Source: an uncultured Rubritalea sp.
GTDB taxonomy: Bacteria > Verrucomicrobiota > Verrucomicrobiia > Verrucomicrobiales > Akkermansiaceae
NCBI GenBank assembly: GCA_937981665.1
Contig: CALJOJ010000010.1
Span: 1 to 50,588 of the forward strand
Reading direction: 5' to 3'
Length of the DNA: 50,588 bases
Shown here: positions 35,180 to 41,464 of the stretch, piece by piece
How the letters are laid out: the number at the start of each line of letters is the position of its first letter
Position numbering within the stretch: position 1 is the stretch's first letter
The notes under the pieces: generated by a model
Databases searched by the model: none
Told to the model about the DNA's origin: nothing
Seen by the model: the letters and a program-made list of their open reading frames with translations, nothing else
Program-made: the position numbers and the translations under genes

Positions 35180-35207
35180 AGAAAACTTAGCCAAGGCTAA
35201 GTTTTCT
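35180..35207 (+). promoter_or_regulatory. MntR-box-like operator of the metal-transport operon
   Basis: A perfect inverted repeat of 13 bp per arm, AGAAAACTTAGCC (35180-35192) and its complement at 35195-35207, surrounds an AA spacer. Its 22-bp core (AAACTTAGCC-AA-GGCTAAGTTT) differs from the E. coli MntR box, as I remember it (AAACATAGC-AAA-GGCTATGTTT), at three positions only. It lies next to the -35 hexamer of the promoter below, where a bound repressor would block polymerase. A manganese-responsive DtxR/MntR-type regulator is the natural reader; Zur or Fur are less likely by sequence. Confidence 0.75.
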
Positions 35208-35208
35208 G

Positions 35209-35237
35209 TTGACACTTTACCAATCCAGCGCTATGTG
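35209..35237 (+). promoter_or_regulatory. sigma-70 promoter of the metal-transport operon
   Basis: TTGACA (35209-35214, consensus -35) and TATGTG (35232-35237, -10-like) are separated by exactly 17 bp. The predicted start of transcription, about 7 nt after the -10, falls on or next to the ATG at 35244, so the mRNA may be leaderless. The operator at 35180-35207 touches the -35. Confidence 0.6.
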
Positions 35238-35243
35238 CATGAC

Positions 35244-36197
35244 ATGAAGAGTTTTATATTCCGTATAACAACAATATTTTTAGCTGTGTTTCTCCTCACA
35301 AACTGTAGTGAAAAAACCGTCTGGAGATCTACTGAGCCATTTGAGACTGGCGGCAAGCTACGTGTGACTGCTACTACTACGATGATTCAAGATCTCGTGC
35401 ACATCATCGGTGGTGAAGATGTAGAAATTTACGGGATGATGGCTGACGGTATTGACCCGCATAGCTATACACAGCGCGCTTCTGATGTCACAGCGATGAC
35501 TACTGCTGACCTCATTTTCTATAATGGTCTCCACCTTGAGGCTACTCTTCAGAGGAAATTAGAAAACCTCGAAAATGCGCATGCTGTCACGAAGAAACTC
35601 AATCAAGATGCGCTCATCCAGCCGTCTGAAGAGAATACGAAGTATGCAGATCCTCACGTATGGGGCGACCCTCTACTATGGGCTAAAACAATTACAGTGG
35701 TAGTTGATGTTCTTAGTAAGAAAGACCCAGCTAACGAATCCAGATACAGCTCTCGTGGGGCAGCCTATCGTGAAGAGCTAGCAGCTCTGAATACCTGGGT
35801 GAAATCTCGTATTGGAGAGATCCCTGCGGAGCAACGTTATTTAGTCACGAGTCATGATGCATTTATGTACTTTTCTAAAGCATTCGACATTGAGGTGCGC
35901 GCCATCAATGGTCTAGCTCCTGGTGATAAGGGTGGGCCTAAGAAAGTAGCTGAACTAGTAGATTTTATTAAAGAAAAGGAAATCAAAATGATCTTCCCTG
36001 AAAGCGCGGCTAATCGTAAAGGAGTCAAAGCAATCGCGCAAGATGCAGGCACTACTGTTTCGGAGCACGAGCTTTTTGCGGATGCTTGTGGTAAACGTGG
36101 TGACATGGAGACTGCTCATGGTGAAACTTACGATATAGGGACTTATATTGGCATGATTAAGCACAACGTAAATCTGGTAGTTGATGGACTTAAATAA
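35244..36197 (+). CDS. manganese/zinc ABC transporter substrate-binding lipoprotein
   Basis: This is a cluster A-I (TroA/ZnuA/MntA-like) metal-binding lipoprotein. The signal peptide ends in a lipobox LLTNC, giving a lipidated Cys at about residue 22. Metal-ligand motifs are visible: D-P-H-S-Y (first His), Y-N-G-L-H-L-E, D-P-H-V-W (second His), S-H-D-A-F-x-Y-F and A-I-N-G-L-A-P-G-D-K. The short linker without a His-rich loop favours Mn rather than Zn, consistent with the MntR-like operator upstream. I prefer the ATG at 35244; an in-frame GTG at 35235 would overlap the -10. It is first in a four-gene operon. Confidence 0.9.
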   Translation: MKSFIFRITTIFLAVFLLTNCSEKTVWRSTEPFETGGKLRVTATTTMIQDLVHIIGGEDVEIYGMMADGIDPHSYTQRASDVTAMTTADLIFYNGLHLEATLQRKLENLENAHAVTKKLNQDALIQPSEENTKYADPHVWGDPLLWAKTITVVVDVLSKKDPANESRYSSRGAAYREELAALNTWVKSRIGEIPAEQRYLVTSHDAFMYFSKAFDIEVRAINGLAPGDKGGPKKVAELVDFIKEKEIKMIFPESAANRKGVKAIAQDAGTTVSEHELFADACGKRGDMETAHGETYDIGTYIGMIKHNVNLVVDGLK

Positions 36198-36224
36198 CCT
36201 AAATGACACCCACAGTAATCTGCT

Positions 36225-36995
36225 ATGATCGCTCTAGAAACTCATGACCTAACTGTTACTTATCATAAGCGACCTGTTCTTTATGGAGTAGATGTCGAAG
36301 TAGAAGAGGGTAGTCTTGTGGGGATTATCGGTCCTAACGGAGCTGGGAAATCTTCGCTCATTAAGTCTATTATGGGAGTAATCCCAACTTCAGGCGGCTG
36401 GACGAAAGTTTTTGGCAAGCCTATCCAAGAGAATCTTCATCGTGTCGGTTATGTACCCCAGCGAGAGAGTGTTGACTGGGACTTCCCGGTTACCGTGATG
36501 GATGTAGCACTCATGGGCACCTATGGTAAACTTGGGCTATTCCGCAGAGCTGGTAAAAAGGAGAAATTCATCGCCTCCGAGGCTCTCGATAAAGTAGGTA
36601 TGCTTCCTTATGCAAAACGTCAGATAGGAAATTTATCTGGCGGTCAGCAGCAACGCGTTTTTTTAGCTCGTGCAATAGCGCAGGATAGCGATTTATATTT
36701 CATGGATGAGCCTTTCACTGGTGTGGATGCTGCTACCGAGGCTACTATCATCACTCTTTTAAAAGAAATGCGTGAGAAGGGGAAGACTGTTCTCGTAGTG
36801 CATCATGATCTTCAAACTGCGCGAGATTACTTTGACCATCTGCTGTTATTGAATATGCGCCTTGTTGCCTATGGAAAGACAGAAGACACGTACACGACTG
36901 AGCTCCTGCAGAAGACGTATGGAGGTAGACTTACTATTCTCGATGAAGTGGCTGGTCAGGCTGCTAATCTCCCTGAAGCTAGTCATTATCAATAA
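36225..36995 (+). CDS. manganese/zinc ABC transporter ATP-binding protein
   Basis: This ATPase of the TroB/MntB type powers the uptake system. In its 256 residues it carries Walker A GPNGAGKSSLIK, a Q-loop VPQRESVDWDFP (the WDFP extension is typical of Mn/Zn importers), signature LSGGQQQRVFLARA, Walker B LYFMDEPFTGVD and the H-loop VVHHDL. It lies 27 bp downstream of the binding protein and 6 bp upstream of the first permease. Confidence 0.94.
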   Translation: MIALETHDLTVTYHKRPVLYGVDVEVEEGSLVGIIGPNGAGKSSLIKSIMGVIPTSGGWTKVFGKPIQENLHRVGYVPQRESVDWDFPVTVMDVALMGTYGKLGLFRRAGKKEKFIASEALDKVGMLPYAKRQIGNLSGGQQQRVFLARAIAQDSDLYFMDEPFTGVDAATEATIITLLKEMREKGKTVLVVHHDLQTARDYFDHLLLLNMRLVAYGKTEDTYTTELLQKTYGGRLTILDEVAGQAANLPEASHYQ

Positions 36996-37001
36996 CCCGT
37001 A

Positions 37002-38330
37002 ATGAGCCTAGATCTATTTCACTACCTCGCATTGACGCTCGGGCAGAAGGCTCCGATTGCAGCTATTTGTGTAGGTTTCTGCTGTGGATTGTTAGGTTGT
37101 TTTGTAGTTGTCAGACGTGTAGCACTCGTTGGCGATGCTATTTCTCACGCGGTATTTCCCGGAGTAGTAGCAGGCTTTATCTGGTCACCAGATCGTAACC
37201 CGTGGATGATTTTTCTCTGTGCTTTAGTAGCTGGGTTATTTGGCGTCGTTGTTGTTCGAGCTATTGTTAGTAGTACACGGCTGAAGTCAGATGCTGCGCT
37301 AGGTATTGTTTTAGCATCATTCTTTGCCTTTGGGGTGTTTTGGAATTCGACTCAACAGCTAGCTGGAGTAAAGGGCTATTTATTTGGTGATTTGACTACT
37401 ATTGCTGATGGTGATCTATGGATGATGACAGGAGCTACAGCTGCTGTAACGACGTTGATTTTTATTTTCCTAAGACCATTCCGTGTGCTTAGTTTTGATG
37501 AGGGGTTCGCGATCGGTTTAGGGTATCCTGTTAGATTTTTAAATGCGCTATTCTTTGGTCTATTAGCCTTCGCTGTTGTCGTGGCGATGCAGGCAGTAGG
37601 GGTGATTCTTGTATCCGCGATGCTTATCACTCCAGCAGCCACAGCGTACTTACTCACGGATAGAATCCAGAAGATGATGGGGCTATCTGTCTTGATTGGA
37701 GTGTTTGCAGCAGTCGGTGGCTGGTGGATTTCAGGCCTTGATAATAGACTTCAAACGGGTCCGGTAATTACTTTACTCGCTTCATTTATCTTTGCTCTTA
37801 TTTACCTATTCGCACCTAGGCACGGTGTGCTAGCTAAGTTTCTCCGCCACGCAGGAAGAAAATCCAGGGTGCATCGTGAGAACACATTGAAGTCGATTTA
37901 CCGTATTCTCGAAGGTGAAGGGTTTAAAGTGGCTGGAGTTGGCGTCGAGCAGCTCGCAGAAGTACGCAAGCTATCTATAGAAGATGTCCTCAAGGATGGC
38001 AAAGATCTGGTAGATAATGATGAGGCGACATGGGAGGAAGGGAAGACTGCTATTTACCTTACTTCCCCTGGCTGGAGAAGAGCGACTGAAATTGTCAGAA
38101 ACCACCGACTTTGGGAATTATATCTAACAGATCAGGCGGACTACGCCGCTGATCATGTGCATGATGATGCAGAAAAAATAGAGCACGTACTTGGTGCAGA
38201 TACGGTTCGTAAGCTAGAGCGTGATCTTAACTTCCCTGAATTCGACCCACACGGAAAACCAATCCCAAGTCTAGAGGCTACTCTGACGATGGAAAAAACC
38301 ATAGGAAAGCAGGAGGGCACTGGCTACTAA
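37002..38330 (+). CDS. manganese/zinc ABC transporter permease fused to a DtxR/MntR-like domain
   Basis: Residues about 1-275 are an ABC-3 permease with about eight helices, including L-V-G-D-A-I-S-H-A-V-F-P-G. From about 288 to 430 a DtxR/MntR-type region follows: a winged helix, then the dimerisation/metal domain ending in D-P-H-G-K-P-I-P (415-422). Aligned by eye, ligands His368 (MntR His77), Glu391 (Glu99), Glu394 (Glu102) and His395 (His103) are kept, while the helix-1 ligands Asp8 and Glu11 become Asn294 and Lys297. The segment in the place of the recognition helix (SIEDVLKDGKDLVDND) is acidic, so DNA binding looks unlikely. Fused permeases of this kind are annotated in Bacteroidota and PVC genomes; their mechanism is not settled. 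Sensing cytoplasmic metal to gate uptake is an attractive inference. Confidence 0.9.
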   Translation: MSLDLFHYLALTLGQKAPIAAICVGFCCGLLGCFVVVRRVALVGDAISHAVFPGVVAGFIWSPDRNPWMIFLCALVAGLFGVVVVRAIVSSTRLKSDAALGIVLASFFAFGVFWNSTQQLAGVKGYLFGDLTTIADGDLWMMTGATAAVTTLIFIFLRPFRVLSFDEGFAIGLGYPVRFLNALFFGLLAFAVVVAMQAVGVILVSAMLITPAATAYLLTDRIQKMMGLSVLIGVFAAVGGWWISGLDNRLQTGPVITLLASFIFALIYLFAPRHGVLAKFLRHAGRKSRVHRENTLKSIYRILEGEGFKVAGVGVEQLAEVRKLSIEDVLKDGKDLVDNDEATWEEGKTAIYLTSPGWRRATEIVRNHRLWELYLTDQADYAADHVHDDAEKIEHVLGADTVRKLERDLNFPEFDPHGKPIPSLEATLTMEKTIGKQEGTGY

Positions 38331-38331
38331 T

Positions 38332-39252
38332 ATGGAACTTGCAATGCTTAGCTGGAACCCTTGGGGGTGGATGATGATGATGTGCTTTTTTGTGGCGCTT
38401 CCTTGTGCGCTTCTGGGTGTTTACCTCATCCTGCGTAGAATGTCGCTAGTGGGTGATGCTATTTCACACAGTGCCTTGCCTGGTATTGTGGTTGCATTTG
38501 CCTTTGTGGGAGATCTTTCTTCACCATGGCTACTCGTTGGGGCTGCTGTTGCAGGTGTCTTAGTCACAGTCTTGATTGAACAGATTCATCGGCGGACTAG
38601 AATCAAGCAAGACTCAGCAATTGGTATCGCCTTCACTTCATTATTTGCTCTCGGCTTGGTGCTCATTCGTTTCCTTGTTGGAGATAAAGTTCACCTTGAC
38701 CAAGACTGCGTTTTAGAAGGGGATGTTTCACATGTCGCGTATGCGAAGATCGTTTCCATGTTCGGTGCTGATGTTCCCGATGCACTGATTCCCGCTGGTA
38801 TTGTGGCTATTGCTACCGTCATTTTAATCACTGTGTTTTATCGGACACTTACCTTGAGTTCCTTTGATTCTGGATTAGCCGCATCATTTGGTTATAAGCC
38901 AGGTGTAGTACATTACGCATTAATGGCGGTCTTGTCTGTTGTGGTGGTGGCTGCGTTTGAGGCAGTGGGAGCTATTCTGGTGATCGCTCTTTTGATCTTA
39001 CCTGGAGCAACAGCGTATCTCTGTACTCATCGACTGAAACTAATGCTGGTCTTATCTGCAGTTCACGCACTGATTTCATCGATCGCGGGGATTTACATCA
39101 GTGTTTATTTCAATGGCAAGGAATCCGCTGGTGTAGTGATCGCCGGTACGCTATTATTCCTTTTGGCATGGCTCGTCGGACCTGTTGATGGAGTCATGGT
39201 GAAGGCTGTCCAGCGAAGAAAAAACACGCTCGATAAATCCGAGCTTGAATAG
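38332..39252 (+). CDS. manganese/zinc ABC transporter second permease
   Basis: This is an ABC-3 family permease of 306 residues, similar in layout to the first permease's N-terminal part but without the DtxR-like tail. The G-D-A-I-S-H-S-A-L-P-G motif, about eight hydrophobic segments and the glycine-rich IVIALLILPGATAYL helix near the C-terminus fit TroD-type subunits. The two permeases presumably form a heterodimer. The gene starts one base after the previous stop. A strong Shine-Dalgarno for the next gene overlaps its stop codon. Confidence 0.92.
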   Translation: MELAMLSWNPWGWMMMMCFFVALPCALLGVYLILRRMSLVGDAISHSALPGIVVAFAFVGDLSSPWLLVGAAVAGVLVTVLIEQIHRRTRIKQDSAIGIAFTSLFALGLVLIRFLVGDKVHLDQDCVLEGDVSHVAYAKIVSMFGADVPDALIPAGIVAIATVILITVFYRTLTLSSFDSGLAASFGYKPGVVHYALMAVLSVVVVAAFEAVGAILVIALLILPGATAYLCTHRLKLMLVLSAVHALISSIAGIYISVYFNGKESAGVVIAGTLLFLLAWLVGPVDGVMVKAVQRRKNTLDKSELE

Positions 39253-39790: not shown

Positions 39791-41464
39791 ATGAGTGACT
39801 CAACATTACGTGTAGCATTAGGTGCCGACCATGGCGGCGTTCAACTTAAAGATAAGATTGCTAAATATCTAGCAGAGTTAGGTCACGAAGTGACTGACTA
39901 CGGAACCAATAGCACGGATTCTGTGGATTACGCAGATTATGCTAATGCCGTTTCTGAGGAAGTAGCGAATGGTTCATTCTGCAAAGGGATTCTCGTCTGC
40001 ACTTCTGGTGTTGGCGTATGTATGTCAGCGAATCGCTTCGTGGGTGTACGCGCAGTAAATGTGCGTACAGCATGTGAAGCTAAGACTTCCCGTGAGCATA
40101 ATGATTCTAATATTCTTTGCCTCGGCGAGAAGAATGTAGTTGATGCTGATGTGAAAGAAATCGTTGATGCTTTTCTTACTACAGAATTTGAAGGTGGTAG
40201 ACACGAGGCTAGACTACTTAAGTCCTCAGGTAGCGCGCTTGCTCAGGCTGACCCTGAAATTTTTGCAGCTGTGAGCGCTGAAGGTAAAAGACAGCGCAGC
40301 CACATTGAGCTGATTGCTTCAGAGAATTTCACGAGTCCGGCTGTGATGGAAGCTCAGGGAAGTCTACTTACTAATAAGTATGCTGAAGGCTATCCTGGTC
40401 GCCGTTGGTACGGTGGTTGTGAGCATGTGGATGTTGCTGAGCAGATCGCTATCGACAGGCTAAAAGAACTTTTCGGCGCTGATCACGCCAACGTTCAAGC
40501 ACACTCAGGATCACAGGCAAATACGGCTGTATATTTCTCAGTGTTGAAGCCGGGTGATAAAATTTTGACAATGGATCTAGCTCACGGTGGTCACTTGACT
40601 CACGGTCATAAGGCAAACTTCTCAGGTAAGTTTTACGAAGTGACTCACTACGGTGTGGCTGAAGAAGACATGCGTATTGATTACGATGCTCTTGAGAAGG
40701 TAGCTATCGAGCTCAAGCCAGCGCTTATCACTACAGGAGCAAGTGCTTATCCACGTGAGATTGATTTCGAGCGAATGGGACAGATTGCTAGAAAAGTGGG
40801 TGCGTATCTCTTTGTGGACATGGCACACATCGCAGGTCTTGTAGCAGCTGGCGTTCATCCCACACCAGTGCCGCACGCAGATTTCGTGACTTCCACAACA
40901 CATAAGTCTCTGCGCGGGCCACGTGGTGGAATTATTCTTTGTAAGGCTGAGCACGCTAAGAAGATAGATTCTACAGTGTTTCCAGGGATCCAAGGTGGAC
41001 CACTTATGCACGTAATTGCAGCTAAGGCAGTTTGCTTCGGTGAGGCGCTCAAGCCTAGCTTTAAAGAATACTCACTTCAGGTGGTGAAGAATGCGCAAGC
41101 TATGGCCGCGCGTCTCGCTAAGCATGGATATAGCATTGTTTCCGGTGGTACTGATAACCATCTCATGCTTGTAGATCTCAGACCAAATGGCATGGATGGT
41201 GCAATAGCATCTGACGCACTCGATAAGGTAGGAATCACAATCAATAAAAATTCAATCCCATTCGATACAGCTGGGCCATTCAAGCCAAGTGGAATTCGTC
41301 TAGGAACTCCAGCAGTAACAACTCGCGGAATGAAAGAAGCCGATGTGGAGAGAGTTGCTGATCTGATTCACGCAGCACTTGAGAACCGTGAAGACGATGC
41401 AAAGCTCGCAGAAATCCAATCGGAAGTATTCTCATTCAATAGAGCATTTCCGTTACCTAAGTAA
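39791..41464 (+). CDS. fused ribose-5-phosphate isomerase B / serine hydroxymethyltransferase
   Basis: One 557-residue reading frame joins two enzymes. Residues 1-142 are RpiB (EC 5.3.1.6): [12 protein letters not shown], the catalytic Cys70 in [14 protein letters not shown] and His103 in REHNDSNIL. Residues about 150-557 are SHMT, GlyA (EC 2.1.2.1): [25 protein letters not shown], the PLP lysine Lys372 in [14 protein letters not shown] and [13 protein letters not shown] near the end. A short Ala/Ser linker separates them and there is no internal stop or Met-rich restart region. Both active sites appear intact. The enzymes link pentose phosphate and one-carbon metabolism; rpiB and glyA are near each other in some Firmicutes, which fits a fusion of neighbours. 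Confidence 0.93.

Follow-up and report, generated by a model that had tools for sequence, protein, structure and literature searches.

An importer operon with a tailed permease

The window, a stretch of 50,588 nucleotides, belongs to a Rubritalea genome of 2.7 Mb (107 contigs, 93% complete). Positions 35235-39252 contain four genes on the forward strand that together encode an importer of the troABCD/ytgABCD type, in the order binding protein, ATPase, permease and permease. The first gene codes for a substrate-binding lipoprotein of the ZnuA/TroA type (35235-36197; PF01297, 2.1e-68); its listed start is a GTG at 35235, and an ATG at 35244 is a possible start as well. It is followed by the gene for the ATPase subunit (36225-36995; PF00005), for which the best NCBIfam model was of the MntA type, with a score under its cut-off. 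The third gene (37002-38330) is a single open frame of 442 amino acids, in which an ABC-3 metal permease (PF00950) is fused to a DtxR-like tail (PF02742). The last gene encodes the second permease subunit, which is tail-less (38332-39252; PF00950 without PF02742). Upstream of the operon, at 35180-35207, a palindrome with 13-base arms around AA was recognized by eye and is a candidate operator; no second site for its 20-base core was detected in the genome with up to three mismatches.

The permease domain covers residues 15-269 of the fused protein (37044-37808) and scored 216 bits against a family cut-off of 20.1 (PF00950, 7e-64). The best Foldseek matches of this domain are chains of the manganese permease PsaBC (7kyp and 7kyo, 36-39% identity); with up to 290 residues, the chains of that structure are too short to include a tail. 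In the AF2 model, residues 276-305 (37827-37916) are predicted to form one continuous helix, in which a basic linker runs into helix 1 of the tail with Asn294 and Lys297 (block pLDDT 82-92). The winged-helix part of the tail (residues 293-353; 37878-38060) was delimited by AF2 secondary structure, as was the predicted recognition-like helix within it (residues 326-338; 37977-38015). The tail ends with the metal-binding and dimerisation domain (residues 354-422; 38061-38267), which scored 86 bits against a cut-off of 27 (PF02742, 1.6e-24). Between the PF00950 and PF02742 matches, where the DNA-binding domain of DtxR is expected, no Pfam match was obtained at E≤0.1. The Pfam scan of the tail showed neither PF01325 nor FeoA, and the FeoA/SH3 domain, which supplies further ligands, is absent.

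For the full protein, AF2 computed from 46 sequences a model (mean pLDDT 85.1, pTM 0.71) in which the permease resembles PsaBC and the tail resembles DtxR. A model of the tail by itself (pLDDT 88.6) matched DR2539 with cadmium at 1.8 Å over 137 columns with 31% identity. The DtxR-like fold of the tail is expected from homology, and the models, which are monomers without metal, match apo and metal-bound entries alike. The fold and the basic linker suggest that the tail is located on the cytoplasmic side.

A fusion of a permease with a DtxR domain is itself already known from YtgCR of Chlamydia. According to its published description, YtgCR of Chlamydia trachomatis (CT069) consists of permease C and a C-terminal DtxR-like domain whose key metal residues are reported to be conserved, and the YtgCR-type operon order (substrate-binding protein, ATPase, permease with tail, permease) is also that of the window. 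The comparison with YtgCR is based on this published description. The permease part of Chlamydia YtgC is described to contain a regulatory WWW motif; in the window permease a Trp-Trp pair is encoded at 37722-37727. Another single frame of the window, located downstream of the operon (39791-41464, forward strand, 557 amino acids), joins ribose-5-phosphate isomerase B (PF02502, residues 8-142) to serine hydroxymethyltransferase (PF00464, residues 150-526); neither part was present in the other loci, which were fetched with short flanks.

Distribution of the fusion in Verrucomicrobiota

When genomes were scanned with short peptides from the window protein, an approach biased toward near relatives of this protein, 68 loci were obtained from Verrucomicrobiota in the broad sense, one of them from Kiritimatiellia. 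The nearest relatives of the window protein were found in uncultured Verrucomicrobiales and in Rubritalea. The fusion is kept in 67 of the 68 loci; the remaining locus, L068, has no intact fused frame and was dropped, and L001 is a repeat of the window. With one open frame, both Pfam domains and this conservation, the original prediction of a metal ABC permease with a DtxR/MntR-like tail was confirmed. When 383 genomes were drawn evenly from the phylum, a tail of the window type was detected in 16 of them at E≤1e-30; the two with the weakest matches (G309 and G251) carry divergent tails. The tail-less second permease is the next gene in 57 of the 65 loci with at least 900 bp of downstream sequence, and in the other eight it was not found by the same rule. 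A search of plasmids yielded no match over 80% of the query, so the tailed permease was not seen there, and it was not found on viral contigs either.

For residue counts, identical tails were removed, leaving 76 F1, 12 F2 and 2 F3 tails and 79 stand-alone entries. Tails were assigned to F1 when they scored more than 120 bits on a profile built from the same loci, and the unity of this group is thus partly given by construction. The N-terminal columns of the F2 tails align poorly. One sequence counted as stand-alone (S_L096, 1-390) is a tail cut by the start of its locus just before a permease. Some genes were entered twice under different locus names; of the 52 rows of long stand-alone repressors, 50 are distinct.

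The residues of the metal site are of the TroR type

Asn294, Lys297, His368, Glu391, Glu394 and His395 are located where the original prediction had placed them. In the alignment of the fused proteins, His368, Trp371, Glu372, His387, Glu391, Glu394, His395, Asp415 and His417 are each present in 67 of the 67 rows that align at these positions, while Asn294 was found in 66 and Lys297 in 67 of 68 aligned rows, L068 being among the 68. Apart from the tail, PF02742 is matched once more in the genome of the window, by a stand-alone MntR (L002, 154 amino acids) that is encoded on another contig and has ligands of the Bacillus subtilis type. Equivalents of His77, Glu99, Glu102 and His103 of B. subtilis MntR and of this MntR are present in the tail; unlike both, it has Asn and Lys in place of Asp8 and Glu11, and PF01325 is undetectable. 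The view that only half of the metal ligands are kept is therefore adequate when B. subtilis MntR is the reference (four of six ligands kept), but not when the tail is compared with repressors of the TroR/SloR/DR2539 type.

In the paper on Treponema denticola TroR, both TroRs are described to have Asn at the place of DtxR Met10 and MntR Asp8 and Glu at the place of Cys102, and the DR2539 paper reports that Glu11 is replaced by Lys in the Deinococcus protein. SloR, ScaR and a PDB relative, 6o5c, contain Asp-Tyr-Leu-Lys at the place of Asn294 and Lys297. Asn is thus found in TroR and Lys in DR2539 and SloR/ScaR, and the Glu/Glu/His core is shared. Measured against the published description, the residues of a TroR-type primary site (Asn/Glu/Glu/His) are present in the tail as Asn294, Glu391, Glu394 and His395. 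Glu and His of the secondary site, a PHG motif and the DtxR-like fold are also common to the tail and these proteins. Glu372 and His387 align with the ancillary-site residues Glu83 and His98 of DtxR, and Glu372, Asp415 and His417 with Glu80, Cys123 and His125 of the secondary site of ScaR. Unlike the tail, repressors of the TroR/DR2539/SloR type are free, DNA-binding proteins, and several of them contain a FeoA/SH3 domain. The Asn294/Lys297 pattern, which had seemed undescribed, therefore matches a known site.

The same pair had been taken as a sign of a lost repressor, and the repressors of the phylum contradict this. Asn is present at this position in 32 of the 52 rows of long stand-alone repressors and Lys in 50 of the 52; all 32 rows with Asn contain the recognition-helix motif. 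The whole string of 11 ligand residues of the window tail is common to 31 of the 52 rows. A dead or a novel metal site as the meaning of Asn and Lys was ruled out by these stand-alone repressors together with the published TroR and DR2539. Asp8 and Glu11 of the binuclear site of B. subtilis MntR are thus not kept in the window tail, and Glu at position 297 is present in none of 91 fused tails, the window included.

The tails lack the signature of DNA binding

To compare the DNA-binding part, sets of 46 fused proteins (out of 69, window and L068 counted) and of 46 stand-alone relatives (out of 84 listed frames) were used, both hand-picked for spread. PF02742 was matched by all 46 fused proteins, and PF01325 by none of them at E≤0.01; in the control set all 46 stand-alone relatives matched PF01325. 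A recognition core of the [TS]x[TS]xM type is present in 77 of the 79 stand-alone entries versus none of the 76 F1, 12 F2 and 2 F3 tails. Thus, a fused homologue with a recognition helix of the repressor type did not appear among 90 tails.

Pairwise identities were compared between 47 non-redundant F1 tails and 38 long stand-alone repressors, for which the overall identity is 0.49 in both groups. The recognition helix (0.25 in F1 versus 0.52 in the long repressors) and the wing (0.27 versus 0.51) are variable in the fused tails. Helix 1 is more conserved in F1 (0.69 versus 0.48), and so are the two parts of the metal core (0.75 and 0.74 versus 0.58 and 0.58). Little difference was found for helix 2 (0.36 versus 0.41) and for the DPHG stretch (0.70 versus 0.71). 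Eight short stand-alone repressors showed an overall identity of 0.40 and an identity of 0.42 in the recognition helix.

An acidic recognition helix had been predicted from the window sequence, where its net charge is indeed -4; this charge is private to the genome. The eight nearest relatives have net charges of -1 to +3, and the mean of 72 F1 tails is -0.75 (range -4 to 3), which rules out acidity as a family feature. Judged from the sequences, the general trait is the lost sequence conservation of this helix rather than its charge. Arg322, beside the old recognition helix, is present in 71 of 76 F1 tails, and Leu or Met occupies this position in 73 of 79 stand-alone entries; because of its location, another kind of DNA binding by the tail may remain.

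These data bear on the main alternative, in which the tail would be cleaved off the permease and would act as a soluble, metal-dependent repressor of its own operon. The operon order (A, B, C-R, D) and the fusion are the same as in ytgABCD of Chlamydia, for which cleavage and iron-dependent repression are reported, and the metal-site residues are conserved in the verrucomicrobial tails. YtgR is reported to be released by cleavage and to repress ytgABCD and trpBA; in contrast, the verrucomicrobial tails lack the DNA-binding signature (PF01325 in the 46 and the recognition motif in the 90 tested), have a variable helix and occur beside stand-alone repressors. The linker is moreover predicted as one continuous helix. 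YtgR is described as the only known iron-dependent regulator of Chlamydia, whereas a stand-alone repressor was found in each of the 16 sampled genomes with the fusion (see below). We therefore regard a cleaved repressor of this kind as unlikely.

Stand-alone repressors and candidate operators

All 16 sampled genomes with a tail, including the two with divergent tails, encode a stand-alone PF01325 protein of 149-254 amino acids that scores over the family cut-off. Altogether, 25 PF01325 matches were obtained in these genomes, none of them on the fused gene. Within the window no stand-alone repressor gene is present. Among the 56 loci with at least 2.5 kb of upstream sequence, 22 contain such a gene, which in 21 of the 22 is located upstream on the opposite strand; none was found in the fetched stretch of the other 34.

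Palindromes of the form TTAG-N6-CTAA, to which counting was limited, were found in 11 of 71 upstream regions, and seven of the 11 are located about 1.69-1.83 kb before the permease frame. By chance, 0.0055 would be expected per 1300 bases, a figure obtained by shuffling, base by base, the leading 1300 bases of 40 loci rather than the counted regions. In nine of 13 loci with a long stand-alone repressor, the best palindrome identified by eye is a different one, ACTTTGATTAATCAAAGT or close to it; it is exact in L055, L056, L058 and L059. Palindromes near ACTTTGATTAATCAAAGT lie 5' of the operon and beside long stand-alone repressors in L047, L050, L054-L059 and L065. A third form, TGTTTTA-N4-TAAAACA, was recognized by eye in ten other loci (L024, L026, L028, L034, L036-L040 and L053); the fetched stretch of these loci is without a repressor. 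Candidate operators thus vary in sequence while the type of tail is constant, and the user of these palindromes is probably the stand-alone repressor.

The presence of repressors in the same genomes allows another explanation, according to which the dimerisation domain of the tail would pair with the stand-alone repressor, and the tail would hold this repressor at the membrane or release it, coupling the state of transport to transcription. This would agree with the strong conservation of the metal and dimerisation domain, with repressors in all 16 sampled genomes, with their genes lying within the locus in 22 of 56 cases, and with the single tail per transporter in most F1 loci, which leaves a partner free. 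However, the stand-alone partners are of two types, short and long, and the tail type is the same with both. We consider such a tethered partner quite unlikely.

Lineage of the tails and relatives at FeoB and NRAMP

A maximum likelihood tree of 153 tails (unrooted) grouped all 72 fused tails together with the cut tail of L096 in one clade (UFBoot 99). Support for F1 on its own was weak (UFBoot 61), and twelve FeoB-linked tails were grouped with UFBoot 100. Trp371 is present in all 76 F1, all 12 F2 and both F3 tails, versus two of 79 stand-alone entries, one of which is the cut tail of L096. Among 17 other entries it occurs in three, an NRAMP fusion and two FeoB-linked proteins. Trp371 and Arg322 as marks of the fused tails would suit a contact with the transporter.

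Six loci (L107, L108, L109, L111, L120 and L140) encode an importer in which each of the two permeases is tailed. In all six, Asp replaces His387 and Glu391 in the tail of the first permease, and the tail of the second keeps His and Glu. L111 contains a short permease frame with a tail (387 amino acids).

Twelve distinct proteins combine a DtxR metal domain with two FeoA stretches (loci L101-L106, L112, L125, L133-L135 and L137, with L104 being the same gene as L088). PF01325 was detected at E≤0.01 in none of them, and neither was the recognition motif. In all 12 distinct loci the gene is located directly before FeoB on the same strand, in the place of feoA. The reverse strand of L115 (500-2800) encodes a frame of 767 amino acids that joins a DtxR metal domain and two FeoA stretches to NRAMP. 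The NRAMP part, searched with a query without the DtxR module, is carried by 63 of 383 genomes; the fusion to DtxR was seen in L115 only. DtxR frames of 316-390 amino acids had been considered as further permease fusions, and those fetched were, with the exception of the short tailed permease frame of L111, either DtxR-2xFeoA proteins before FeoB or repressors. The long frames of L110, L111, L119 and L140 are repressors with a normal motif, of which those of L110 and L119 are also located before a FeoB.

DtxR-FeoA architectures are already noted in InterPro. By its description, MntR of Porphyromonas gingivalis has a DtxR metal domain and twin FeoA domains like the FeoB-linked relatives, and it is presented as a predicted transcriptional repressor. 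Since such proteins are known, the architecture alone is no proof of transporter control. At the level of titles and the beginnings of abstracts, the literature searched contained no description of the verrucomicrobial fusion, of a tail that keeps its metal site but has lost the DNA-reading signature while a dedicated repressor is present, or of a DtxR module on FeoB or NRAMP.

A further alternative is that the tail takes over metal from the exit of the permease, or stabilizes the complex, without regulation. The conserved metal-site residues and the position of the tail behind the final membrane helix of a permease resembling PsaBC are compatible with such a role, which would leave unexplained both the whole winged-helix fold with its conserved helix 1 and the occurrence of this kind of module next to FeoB and on NRAMP. 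A metal acceptor or assembly part therefore seems rather improbable to us.

A probable sensor on the importer

Of the readings considered, we favour, with moderate confidence and on the basis of sequence, that the tail is a cis-acting cytoplasmic sensor of manganese or iron on the importer, most likely exerting feedback inhibition. This reading is preferred because PF01325 and the recognition motif are absent from the fused tails family-wide, because each of the 16 sampled genomes that contain the fusion encodes a stand-alone repressor, and because relatives without the signature adjoin FeoB and in one case sit on NRAMP. The original prediction had likewise proposed a metal sensor on the transporter instead of a repressor; its conclusion is thus favoured, although two of its premises, the Asn/Lys pair and the acidity, failed.

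In such a mechanism, a sensor domain of the TroR/DtxR type would remain joined to the first permease at its cytoplasmic end and would have given up DNA reading. When cytoplasmic metal is sufficient, it would bridge the second domain (His368, Glu372, His387, Glu391, Glu394, His395, Asp415 and His417) and the helix with Asn294. Helix 1 of the tail is predicted to extend directly from the linker that follows the last membrane helix, and metal binding could therefore move the linker and damp transport. The sequences document the fusion itself, a conserved metal core without the DNA-binding signature, the co-resident repressors of the 16 sampled genomes and the operator-like palindrome of the window; metal would probably occupy the tail, and a negative direction of control is what the proposed mechanism would imply.

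MetNI and ModBC importers contain a C-terminal sensor on the ATPase, with a fold unrelated to that of the tail. The proposed mode would resemble theirs as a cytoplasmic substrate sensor on an ABC importer acting by trans-inhibition; unlike theirs, the sensor of the window is located on the permease and is derived from a repressor.

Several observations count against a sensor in cis. Since most F1 transporters have a single tail, two tails cannot pair within a transporter in the manner of the usual DtxR dimer. YtgCR is reported to be cleaved and to repress transcription, and a stand-alone repressor is absent from the window and from the fetched stretch of 34 of the 56 loci. In addition, the literature search returned no transport or metal-binding experiment on verrucomicrobial members.

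More tentatively, a wider reading of the sequences is possible, in which the DtxR module serves Verrucomicrobiota as a plug-in post-translational metal sensor on three unrelated kinds of importer, ABC, FeoB and NRAMP. The ABC variants would carry the tail on one or both permeases, and the FeoB version would take the place of feoA. Where both permeases are tailed, the metal sites of their tails have become different, and the sensor may therefore be a heterodimer within a single transporter.

For manganese and iron uptake in bacteria, transcriptional repression is the usual explanation. If the favoured reading is true, a repressor domain borne by the importer, with the metal site kept and DNA reading dropped, would act as a direct feedback valve and illustrate a route from a gene regulator to an allosteric part of a transporter. 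In the Chlamydia papers considered, the fusion is treated as the source of the cleaved repressor, and the share of the permease part in uptake is left open; the role of the uncleaved fusion in transport would then become a testable question in Chlamydia.
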